This document shows, piece after piece, positions 30,972-58,816 of a stretch of DNA of 64,000 bases (positions within the stretch are counted from its first letter, which is position 1; every line of letters begins with the position of its first letter). The notes beneath the pieces are model-generated. The model saw nothing but the letters and a program-made list of their open reading frames with translations, made no database searches and was not told the DNA's origin. The stretch comes from Saprospiraceae bacterium (GTDB lineage Bacteria; Bacteroidota; Bacteroidia; Chitinophagales; Saprospiraceae), in the NCBI GenBank assembly GCA_020629515.1, contig JAHDDE010000003.1, positions 1 through 64,000 on the forward strand, read 5' to 3'. The position numbers and the translations under genes were made by a program.

Positions 30972-31080
30972 GCGTTATTTTGAAAAAATACATCAATTGT
31001 TACACCTCCACATTTATGGTACTCGAGTTAATATTTTTTGGTTGAAGTAAATAATATTTTTAGACTGCTCTAAATTTAGA

Positions 31081-31107: not shown

Positions 31108-31776
31108 ATGCTTAGCTTTACTGAAGAGAATTATCTCAAAGCCATCTATAAGATCAACGAGAAAACTAAGGAAAGGGCAAGCACTAATGCCATTGCTGAG
31201 ATAATGCAGACTACGGCGGCTTCAGTCACTGATATGATGAAAAAGCTCTCAAATAAAAATCTTATTACTTACGAAAGATATAAAGGATCTAAGTTATCTT
31301 CTCAAGGGGCTCAAATCGCCACTTCACTGATCAGAAAGCATAGACTCTGGGAAACATTTTTAGTAGAAAAACTCAGCTTTTCTTGGGAAGAGGTACACGA
31401 ATTAGCCGAACAATTAGAGCATATTAATTCTAATAAACTCATCGAAAGATTAGATGAATATTTGGATTTTCCTAAATATGACCCTCATGGCGATCCAATA
31501 CCTAATGCAGAAGGTAAATTTACACTAAGAGAACAAATCAAACTCAGCCAACTCAATATTGGTGAAGAAGGAAATTTGATAGGAGTGCAAAATCATGATG
31601 ATCAGTTTTTAGAATATTTAAATGAGCTAAATATAAAGTTAGGTTCACGAATCACAGTGACTAAAAAGGTGCTCTATGATAAAACCTATAACATAATTGT
31701 TGATAATGAACATACCGTTCAGATATCTGAAAAGGTAGCTAATAATTTGATGGTTAAAAAAATACTTGCCTTATGA
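31108..31776 (+). CDS. DtxR/MntR-family metal-dependent transcriptional repressor
   Basis: The 222-residue protein has an N-terminal winged helix (FTEENYLKAIYKI...TTAASVTDMMKKL), the dimer and metal-binding domain (about 65-140: HRLWETFLVEKL, VHELAEQLEHI, and 'FPKYDPHGDPIPNAEG') and a C-terminal FeoA/SH3-like domain (about 150-222). Members repress metal uptake genes when Mn2+ or Fe2+ is bound. It heads an operon: its stop overlaps the binding-protein start (ATGA). It likely controls that operon. Mn versus Fe cannot be decided from sequence alone. Confidence 0.9.
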   Translation: MLSFTEENYLKAIYKINEKTKERASTNAIAEIMQTTAASVTDMMKKLSNKNLITYERYKGSKLSSQGAQIATSLIRKHRLWETFLVEKLSFSWEEVHELAEQLEHINSNKLIERLDEYLDFPKYDPHGDPIPNAEGKFTLREQIKLSQLNIGEEGNLIGVQNHDDQFLEYLNELNIKLGSRITVTKKVLYDKTYNIIVDNEHTVQISEKVANNLMVKKILAL

Positions 31777-54638: not shown

Positions 54639-56591
<1,953 letters not shown>

Positions 56592-56615: not shown

Positions 56616-56652
56616 AAAAGCCCTTCGTAATTTTTGGAGGGCTTTTTTATTT
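56616..56652 (+). terminator. intrinsic terminator of gyrB
   Basis: AAAAGCCCT (56616-56624) pairs with AGGGCTTTT (56638-56646) and is followed by a T-run. It lies 24 nt after the gyrB stop. Confidence 0.8.
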
Positions 56653-56763
56653 AACGTTAGGCTCGTAAAACTCTATATGATGTAGATATCACCAAGTGAG
56701 ATGAGGCCTTGTTCAACAATAATTACCACAAGGCATAATCTATTCTATTTTGATTAGGTACTA

Positions 56764-56827
56764 TATAAAAAAGAGAAGCCACCTCAAGACGAGGCGACTT
56801 CCTTTCACTGCATCAACCAAAAAATAA
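56764..56827 (-). ncRNA. structured RNA cassette, copy 1 of 2
   Basis: Read on the minus strand this unit starts with a 29-nt block (56827-56799) identical to copy 2, containing TTTTTTGGTTGATGCAGTGA and then AAGGAA. A hairpin follows: an 11-bp stem (56801-56791 with 56785-56775) and a GTCTT loop. Its two non-Watson-Crick positions are G-U pairs on the minus strand but C-A mismatches on the plus strand, so the RNA is read leftwards. A T-rich run (TCTTTTTTATATAG, 56774-56761) follows, as in an intrinsic terminator. TATTTTTTG in the block is close to the -7 promoter consensus, with one extra T. No protein is encoded. Confidence 0.5.
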
Positions 56828-56861
56828 GTCTTTATAATAAATCTCTAAGAGATAAAATTTT

Positions 56862-56925
56862 TAAAATTAAGATAGGAACCATCTCCTAAGAGACAGTTCC
56901 TTTCACTGCATCAACCAAAAAATAA
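56862..56925 (-). ncRNA. structured RNA cassette, copy 2 of 2
   Basis: The same 29-nt block (56925-56897) is followed on the minus strand by a hairpin (11-bp stem 56900-56890 with 56885-56875, loop TTAG). The stem sequence differs from copy 1 at several positions, but partners change together so pairing is kept, again with two G-U pairs on the minus strand only. After the stem the sequence TATCTTAATTTT is less terminator-like than in copy 1. The two units are 98 nt apart. They lie in 56592-57070, the largest gene-free stretch here, which also holds a small ATGAAG/CTTCAT hairpin at 56945-56962. Confidence 0.5.
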
Positions 56926-57057
56926 ATCCTATTACTATATTTTAATGAAGTCTTTTCTTCATTTATCCTTTAGACATAGATAGAATTAAAAAGTCACAGC
57001 TTTTTTTAAAAAATTATTTGACACCTTCTTTACAAAATAAATAAGTGCTAAGGGTCG

Positions 57058-57065: not shown

Positions 57066-57070
57066 TATTG

Positions 57071-57577
57071 ATGAATTATATCATACTCCTTATATCATCA
57101 TTCCTAGGAATTCAAAGTGGCTCTATACATGACTTGCATCTTAGTAGAACTGATTTAGCATTTAATCCATCATCCAATTCATTTGAGGTTACGATCCACC
57201 TATTTATTGATGACCTTGAGTACGCACTTGCTGAAGATGGTTTTGATAATTTAATGTTATGTACTGACAAAGAAGATGTAGAAGCTGATACATATATAGG
57301 CCATTATCTTTCTGAACATCTTAAGATCCTTGTTGATAATAATCAAGTTAATATGACCTATTTAGGCAAAGAGGAAAGCGACGATCTTCAAGCTGTTTGG
57401 TGTTATATTGAGATTCCATTAAAAGAGCAACCTGAAATGGTAACAGTAGAATTAGATTTTTTTAATGAACTCTATGAAGATCAAAAAAATATACTTCAGA
57501 TCAACTTTGACGAAACCAATAAAGGCTATTTTTTATTAAATAGTCAAAAAACATCTGGGTCAATAAATATTCGATGA
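57071..57577 (+). CDS. exported DUF6702-family protein
   Basis: The 168-residue protein has a signal peptide (about 1-18) and then a beta-rich domain beginning [20 protein letters not shown] with [16 protein letters not shown], the pattern of the DUF6702 family of Bacteroidota envelope proteins. The function is unknown. ATG at 57071 is preferred to the TTG just before it. It overlaps yidD by 4 bp (ATGA) and is the first gene of an operon with yidD and hemB. Confidence 0.7.
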
Positions 57578-57858
57578 TCAACTACATATTTCAGAGCATA
57601 TTTATTCTTCCAATCAAGATATACCAATGGACTCTATCACCATTATTGAGTAGTCTGTTTGGACCAAAATGCAGATTCGACCCTACATGCTCACACTATA
57701 TGATTGAGGCAATAAGAGAATGGGGCGTAATAAAAGGAATATGGCTCGGAACTAAAAGGATAAGTCGGTGCCATCCATGGGGAGGTTTTGGACCAGATCC
57801 TGTACCAAAAAATCATACAAATAAACGTGTAAATGAATCAAAGACCACGGAGAAATAG
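57574..57858 (+). CDS. yidD: membrane protein insertion efficiency factor YidD
   Basis: The 94-residue protein has the YidD motifs [26 protein letters not shown] and [15 protein letters not shown], each spanning part of the three-cysteine membrane-associated fold (the first motif begins at about residue 18). It assists YidC-dependent insertion of inner membrane proteins. It is usually found next to rnpA-yidC, but here it lies between DUF6702 and hemB, overlapping both (4 bp and 26 bp). Confidence 0.95.
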
Positions 57859-58816
57859 AAAATCCAACTCTATAAGAAGATTGATAAGCGAAACAAGAGT
57901 AACCAATGATGATCTCATATATCCCTTGTTTCTTACCGAAGGAACCAATATCAAAGAAGAGATATCATCTCTTCCTGGTAATTATAGGTGGTCCACAGAC
58001 AGGATGCTAAAGGAAATAGAAGAATGCATAAAATTAGGATTACATAGCTTCATGGTATTTCCCAAAATATCCGATCAGCACAAGGATAAGAAAGGGACAT
58101 ACAGTTATGATGACAATAATTATTATTTAAAAGCTGCAAAACAAATTAAAAAAGAATTTCCTGATATCACTTTGATTAGTGATGTAGCCTTGGATCCTTA
58201 TAATGTGGATGGTCATGATGGAATTGTGGAAAATGGAAGAATTCTCAATGATGAAACATTAGAAATATTGGGTAAAATGAGCATTGCTCAAGCCGAAGCC
58301 GGATTTGATATTTTGGGACCATCTGATATGATGGACGGAAGAATAGGATTCATCCGAGAGGAGCTGGATGACCATGGATATGAAGACATATCGATCATGT
58401 CTTATACGGCTAAATACGCAAGTGCATTTTACGGACCATTTAGAGATGCATTGGATAGTGCTCCTGTCTTGGATCCAAGTATTCCTAATGACAAAAAAAC
58501 TTATCAAATGGACCCTGCGAATAAAAGAGAGGCCATTATTGAGGCAGATTTAGATGTAGATGAAGGAGCAGATTTTTTGATGGTTAAGCCAGCTTTAAAT
58601 TATCTCGATGTGATTCATTTAATCAAAGAAAATTATGATAGACCATTGGCTGCTTATCATGTAAGTGGAGAATGTGCCATGCTCATAGCCGCTTGTCAAC
58701 GTGGATGGTTAGACTATAATATAGCGATGCCAGAGACACTATTATCGATAAAAAGAGCTGGTGCGGATGTGATCATTAGCTATTTTGCTAAAGACTTCAT
58801 GGGTCAGGCGAGATAG
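57833..58816 (+). CDS. hemB: porphobilinogen synthase (delta-aminolevulinic acid dehydratase)
   Basis: The 327-residue enzyme has both Schiff-base lysines, K194 in [18 protein letters not shown] and K252 in [12 protein letters not shown]. It joins two 5-aminolevulinates to form porphobilinogen, the haem precursor. The metal loop reads [14 protein letters not shown], without the cysteine triad of zinc-type enzymes, so a Mg2+-type enzyme is expected. Its start overlaps yidD by 26 bp, so it relies on coupled translation. Confidence 0.96.

Follow-up and report, generated by a model that had tools for sequence, protein, structure and literature searches.

Tandem cassettes with a constant core and drifting hairpins, a candidate multicopy small RNA family of Saprospiraceae

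Two tandem cassettes beside a gyrB-like gene

The window, that is the whole stretch of DNA analysed here, comprises 64,000 nt of a Saprospiraceae contig. Between a gyrB-like open reading frame (ORF) and a divergent ORF with a DUF6702 domain, it carries two cassettes on the minus strand, of which the copy with the higher coordinates (copy 2) would be transcribed first. The features of the region are given below, the gyrB-like, yidD-like and hemB-like names having been assigned by reading of the sequence.

54645-56591, plus strand: gyrB-like ORF, convergent, with its 3' end downstream of the small RNAs
56616-56646, plus strand: terminator-like site of the gyrB-like ORF
56774-56802, minus strand: terminator-like hairpin of copy 1, followed by CTTTTTT (56773-56767)
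56799-56827, minus strand: copy 1 (predicted to be transcribed second), identical 29-nt block, without a promoter motif of its own
56874-56901, minus strand: hairpin of copy 2 with a weak T-tract, a putative leaky terminator
56897-56925, minus strand: copy 2 (predicted to be transcribed first), 29-nt block with the core TTTTTTGGTTGATGCAGTGA at 56903-56922
56944-56963, minus strand: small inverted repeat AATGAAG-AAAAGA-CTTCATT, seen in the sequence of the predicted 5' leader of the upstream copy
56970-56997, minus strand: ECF-sigma-like promoter motif GTGACTT-N14-TGTCTAA (-35-like GTGAC, -10-like GTCTAA)
57068-57577, plus strand: DUF6702 ORF, divergent
57574-57858, plus strand: yidD-like ORF after the DUF6702 ORF
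57833-58816, plus strand: hemB-like ORF after the yidD-like ORF

The whole cassettes occupy 56762-56828 (copy 1) and 56864-56926 (copy 2) of the minus strand. The two exact 29-nt copies named in the original prediction were confirmed at the listed positions with a start-to-start distance of 98 nt, and the similarity between the copies goes beyond the block, with 86% over 44 nt. A 22-mer of the block (up to three mismatches) occurred twice in the window and in none of 100 shuffles. The stems, predicted to differ in sequence while keeping their pairing, were recovered as minus-strand hairpins of 11-12 bp with energies of -21.6 and -19.2 kcal/mol (z -4.2 and -3.65). Folds of the plus strand were weaker (-12.5 and -13.9 kcal/mol), in keeping with G-U pairs present on the minus strand only, which bears out the strand assignment made earlier. 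A terminator scan of the region found three sites, namely both hairpins and the end of the gyrB-like ORF (shuffle mean 0.1); the terminator-like T-tract expected for copy 1 is its CTTTTTT tail, and the T-tract of copy 2 is poor (ATCTTAATTTT). The inverted repeat at 56944-56963 is present in the centroid fold and absent from the minimum-energy fold.

Three further details of the original prediction call for correction. The -7-like TATTTTTTG within the block cannot serve as a usable -7 box because its TA is not conserved in other copies (AATTTTTGG, GATTTTTTGG), and a promoter inside the block (TATTTTTTGG) was accordingly rejected. The tiny ORF ATG-CAG-TGA is lost in divergent relatives (GATACAATAA, GATACATAAA) and was ruled out. 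The RNA length of about 50-65 nt is probably too short for the upstream copy, whose block begins 45 nt after the end of the promoter motif.

Distribution and conservation of the family

A search of related genomes for the block and for a covariance model built on it, proposed along with the original prediction, returned copies in nine Saprospiraceae genomes of the window's genus and a second one. The 18-nt core TTTTGGTTGATGCAGTGA has 34 exact matches in these nine genomes, which belong to two genera and carry 1-11 copies each. In the window's genus there are two copies in G000, one in G001 and two in G002; in the second genus there are two in G123, one in G212, 11 in G267, six in G306, five in G334 and four in G356. 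A DNA search of 298 genomes of the bacterial family gave matches in eight. The covariance model scored at least 47 bits in nine of 398 such genomes, the same nine that hold the exact core, and the next best score was 36.5 bits; 13 candidates were scored per genome under strict filters, which may have passed over weak relatives. Matches of 29-36 bits in other genera were not accepted as a wider distribution because core matches lacking a hairpin in unrelated organisms (L085, L098, L102) score 29-34 bits. Patterns with three mismatches matched 270 of the 398 genomes and were excluded from the counts. When the genome_contigs collection (described as covering 84,980 species) was scanned for an exact 19-mer, 24 stretches matched. 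Contigs labelled Saprospiraceae, Saprospirales or Bacteroidetes account for 21, and the other three (Neomarinimicrobiota, Diapherotrites, Lachnospiraceae) had no hairpin following. In the window itself, positions 31030-31065 hold a core-like stretch TATTTTTTGGTTGAAG (18.3 bits) with no terminator hairpin apparent, just upstream of an ORF starting near 31110.

The copies are arranged singly or in tandem groups of two (window, L091, L095, L104), three (L097) and six (L100), and the 11 copies of G267 lie on five contigs with unrelated hairpins within the one genome. The comparisons that follow use 33 distinct copies, whose relatedness by tandem duplication and descent means that counts over them are not independent. 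These were obtained from 38 distinct core matches (at most one mismatch) by dropping five, the three in unrelated organisms without a hairpin (L085, L098, L102) and two with an altered core and no matching hairpin seen (L131, L053). One copy on contig C75 of G267 does not differ from another over 55 nt and is counted in the 34 exact matches but not in the 33; a copy in G356 (C436; 47.5 bits, one core change) and L237, a near-core without a matched hairpin, are outside both.

Across the copies the core UUUUUGGUUGAUGCAGUGA is unchanged, a constancy which in the 33-copy alignment is built in by the design of the search, while the hairpins change with compensation. In predicted folds a hairpin follows the core in all 33 copies, and the conserved 5' stretch is single-stranded and succeeded by a Rho-independent terminator. 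Ten of the 12 stem pairs are altered on both sides, pairing is kept in 89.4% of alignment cells against 72.6% after shuffling, and the covariation score of 0.615 exceeds the values of the shuffled (0.313) and the slid alignment (0.131-0.252). The accepted core variants in the nine genomes are L163, the pair at L138 in G001 and the G356 copy with one changed letter. L163 and L138 retain only UUUUUGGUUGAURCA of the core and score 23-31 bits with the model, a range that calls for caution; they were accepted on the upstream motif, on position and on a terminator that folds well in two of the three, the hairpin of the first L138 copy folding poorly. Their surroundings are alike, with a TetR-like gene on one side and a galactose-mutarotase-like gene on the other (by reading).

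One further copy is carried by a phage contig of the viral collection (IMGVR_UViG_3300029183_000001), where the exact core and a matching hairpin (53.5 bits) lie on the minus strand at L275:777-841, in the interval that separates the terminase gene from the next ORF. The first-listed relative of this terminase (38.9% identity) belongs to a Flavobacterium phage, which makes a Bacteroidota host likely. The 65-nt copy had no match among 50,697 phage records.

The cassettes were said to match no named family, and this held in Rfam scans: at the gathering cut-off the only match in the window and 12 loci was a tRNA elsewhere in the window, and a permissive scan of the window region (E up to 10) gave no family matching the cassettes. 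The open-access literature searched held no description of this RNA family. The earlier suggestion of a duplicated small RNA family is thus strongly supported at the level of sequence by its presence in nine genomes and at several loci, by the compensatory hairpins and by the lack of an Rfam match.

Upstream motif, sigma genes and other units

A two-block motif, GTGAC-N15-18-GTC, with ECF-like spacing is present within 110 nt upstream in 21 of the 33 distinct copies, as compared with a mean of 0.037 and a maximum of 1 in 1000 dinucleotide shuffles. The stricter TGACYT-N14-15-GTCTWA precedes 14 of the 33 (shuffle mean 0.003). The remaining 12 copies, window copy 1 included, lack GTGAC-N15-18-GTC in the 110 nt scanned, so that in the window the motif precedes copy 2 only. 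We take the roughly 16 nt between GTGAC and CGTC to be a spacing typical of ECF-sigma promoters and regard the motif, a putative ECF promoter, as unlike the primary promoter of Bacteroidota. It also led to L163 without use of the core, and the counterparts of L163 in G001, the two L138 copies, are preceded by GTGAC-N17-GTCTAA and ATGAC-N17-GTCTAA. In the nine genomes the strict motif has 35 sites against eight for the reversed pattern, and in the window's genome seven against none. The looser GTGAC-N16-18-GTCTWA shows no overall enrichment in the window's genome, with 13 sites against 17 reversed.

These 13 looser sites were examined for other units behind the motif. Five lie in ORFs and eight are intergenic, and six of the eight have a terminator-like site within 130 nt, compared with 14 of 400 random intergenic window positions. 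The seventh is window copy 2, the T-tract of which falls short of the terminator criterion, and the eighth precedes, in the looser form of the motif, a homologue of mechanosensitive channels (PF05552; L201). The six motif-terminator units are L163 of the core family (family A), L169/L205 and L200 (family B), L159 and L167 (family C, weaker) and L204, a further unit of about 115 nt. The family B units, about 55 nt each (L169 from 1033 and L200 from 1533, both on the plus strand), share 25 of 25 nt (TTTTTTGGTATTTTAAGGTAAGATA) and consist of TGTATTTTTTGGTATTTTAAGGTAAGATA followed by a terminator-like hairpin that differs between L169 and L200. In the possible third family, C, L159:1529-1616 (plus strand) and the minus strand of L167 share CACCTTTTATAA. 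Families A and B have UUUUUUGGU in common, which is possibly a common chaperone or anchoring site. Outside the window's genome, the nine-genome set holds 12 distinct strict sites without a core, none with a terminator in the stretch tested, and families B and C are for this reason known so far from the window's genome alone.

In the second genus, a relative of the L201 channel (L164; PF05552, 48% identical) is preceded by the strict motif, and the presence of a channel gene behind the motif in both genera hints at an osmotic or envelope signal. By its sequence, L161 is also among the mechanosensitive-channel loci preceded by the motif.

Sigma genes adjoin L093, L200 and the second-genus copies L090, L092, L096, L105 and L108, those next to L092, L096 and L108 having been identified by reading. 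The copy at L093 has no motif; an anti-sigma gene (RskA_C) that belongs to an ECF sigma operon has its stop codon no more than 20 nt ahead of the core, and the RNA of this copy may be released from the 3' end of that gene. Upstream of the sigma gene of this operon, at about 5361-5396 of L093, lies a palindrome, CTTATACACAT...ATGTGTATAAG, which is perhaps an operator. Next to L200, and divergent from it, is an ECF sigma gene (Sigma70_r2 and r4); after this gene comes a 102-aa ORF without a Pfam match, a possible anti-sigma gene. Autoregulation pointed to no responsible sigma factor, as the motif preceded none of 30 sigma loci examined out of 37 matches in the window's genome; the scan took in each complete frame plus up to 400 nt upstream of it, and 27 of the 30 had at least 300 nt upstream.

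Tentatively, these units may form a small-RNA-rich ECF regulon of the clade, comprising in the window's genome families A, B and C together with the channel, with family A amplified in the second genus to 11 copies and captured by a phage, which may steer its host with it, a picture we regard as having a little better than one chance in three. The six-copy tandem array of the second genus, in which most copies have their own motif, belongs to this reading.

Proposed mode of action and relation to known systems

The family, its constant core, the compensatory hairpins and the shared upstream motif are all apparent from the sequences, and we consider it probable that each of the tandem cassettes is a gene for a multicopy, trans-acting small RNA controlled by an ECF sigma factor. 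From this we infer expression, read-through, base-pairing, repression and a stress signal in the following manner. Transcription would depend on an ECF-type sigma factor, which probably responds to envelope or osmotic stress, and would begin about 40 nt upstream of the copy 2 block. In the RNA, a variable 5' leader would be followed by the U-rich core (UUUUUUGGUUGAUGCAGUGA), constant and single-stranded, and then by a terminator hairpin that can change in sequence provided that pairing holds. Copy 1 would probably be made by read-through of the weak terminator of copy 2 and end at its own stronger one. The core, through its proposed pairing segment UUGGUUGAUGCA, would probably pair with the A-rich translation start regions of several mRNAs and block their translation, and multiple copies would raise the dosage.

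The searches for such targets gave little. Matches to the core complement numbered 69 against 40 for the reversed sequence and 35 against 21, three near or true copies being included in each. Core pairing with 302 start regions hardly beats shuffled cores, of which 25 (mean), 32 (count) and 8 (minimum) out of 150 were as extreme. The best start-region candidate, L211, paired through its leader in one genome (-19.3 kcal/mol) and was ruled out as a target since the pairing was not conserved in seven of seven relatives. A string like GTTAATGTAGCATTAAGA recurs upstream of ORFs in L270-L274, several of them relatives of the L211 lipoprotein, and is perhaps another promoter type.

These weak target tests favour the main rival reading, that the core is chiefly a protein-binding site, for an RRM protein like RbpB or another chaperone, and that the RNA acts as a protein sponge. 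The core is kept over 19 nt, which is beyond the need of a single seed, family B in the same genome has TATTTTTTGGT in common with it but not the remainder, and a gene for an RRM protein lies about 2.2 kb from one copy (L106). However, a sponge RNA usually carries a short motif several times over, whereas here there is one site per RNA and the divergent members retain only the segment given above. We judge this rival unlikely, with something like one chance in five.

The original prediction had also offered a serial regulatory leader, that is a cis-acting leader or attenuator controlling a downstream gene after sensing. A same-strand gene does come next in 4 of 21 other loci (L099, L101, L106, L107), with DUF2927 genes (Pfam) after L099 and L107, a lipoprotein-like gene after L106 and a universal-stress gene after L101, but the next gene is convergent in 14 of the 21, as it is in the window with the 3' end of the gyrB-like ORF, and three loci show no next gene (L088, L091, L103). 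The leader is left unsupported and is quite improbable. We give equally little credence to a DNA repeat or mobile element of MITE, REP or attC-like kind in place of an RNA gene: the copies are both tandem and dispersed and one is in a phage, but a neighbourhood of a gyrB or sigma gene and a DUF6702-like gene is common to both genera (partly by reading), the T-tracts and G-U pairs are strand-specific and the promoter motif stands on one side only. Least probable of all are ordinary terminators near a primary-sigma promoter that resemble one another through recent duplication only, for while a T-run followed by G presumably resembles part of the Bacteroidota -7 box, the 19-nt identity spans two genera despite unrelated hairpins within one genome (G267) and the upstream motif is far beyond shuffles.

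To return to the trans-acting small RNA under ECF control, regulation by small RNAs in Bacteroidota is, to our knowledge, known mainly from Bacteroides and a few flavobacteria. If the reading is true, the cassettes add an environmental clade with a multicopy family that has no name, and the predicted stress promoter allows further members to be found from sequence alone. The phage copy would then suggest an exchange of regulatory RNA between phage and host. The family would also be a testable case for ECF-controlled small RNAs in the phylum and for the question why bacteria amplify one seed into tandem arrays.

MicA and RybB are sigma-E-dependent sRNAs of enterobacteria, and the multicopy families Qrr and LhrC belong to other phyla and are under other control than the family here. 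As with Qrr and LhrC, which are named as multicopy sRNA families in the cited part of the FopS study (PMC11697453), there are several related RNA copies per genome. FoxJ of Fusobacterium is described in the source as a small RNA under an ECF-type promoter (PMC11005410). Like MicA, RybB and FoxJ, the cassettes would encode small RNAs with an ECF-type promoter, which is only predicted here, and unlike them the family is multicopy and tandem, with no Rfam match at the gathering cut-off. The SM6 sigma-ECF motif and the Rfp RNAs of Flavobacterium psychrophilum offer a parallel within Bacteroidota, where, going by the cited passages, SM6 is a -10 CGT-type ECF motif and Rfp11, a putative regulatory RNA, is among its promoters (PMC9723704). 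The SM6 promoters listed there mostly serve protein genes, several of type IX secretion (PMC9723704); the likeness is drawn at the level of description.

Among the closest is FopS, a family of paralogous sRNAs of Bacteroides thetaiotaomicron, which, going by the cited part of its description (PMC11697453), the cassettes resemble in architecture, copy number, the presence of one member of the mRNA-3'-end type and carriage by phage. Two differences stand out against the same part of that account: FopS genes use canonical sigma-ABfr promoters where the family here has GTGAC-N-GTC, and tandem arrays, present here, are not named there for FopS (PMC11697453). In 21 of the 33 distinct copies GTGAC-N15-18-GTC stands in place of the sigma-ABfr feature, and the TA of the -7-like element in the block is not kept. 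The permissive Rfam scan of the window region (E up to 10) listed no FopS-named family, which bears on FopS only if that release contains a FopS model. The cassettes are an unnamed family, a variant of the kind seen in FopS and the sigma-E RNAs, and on our best reading by analogy the family would work like FopS of Bacteroides or the sigma-E RNAs of enterobacteria.
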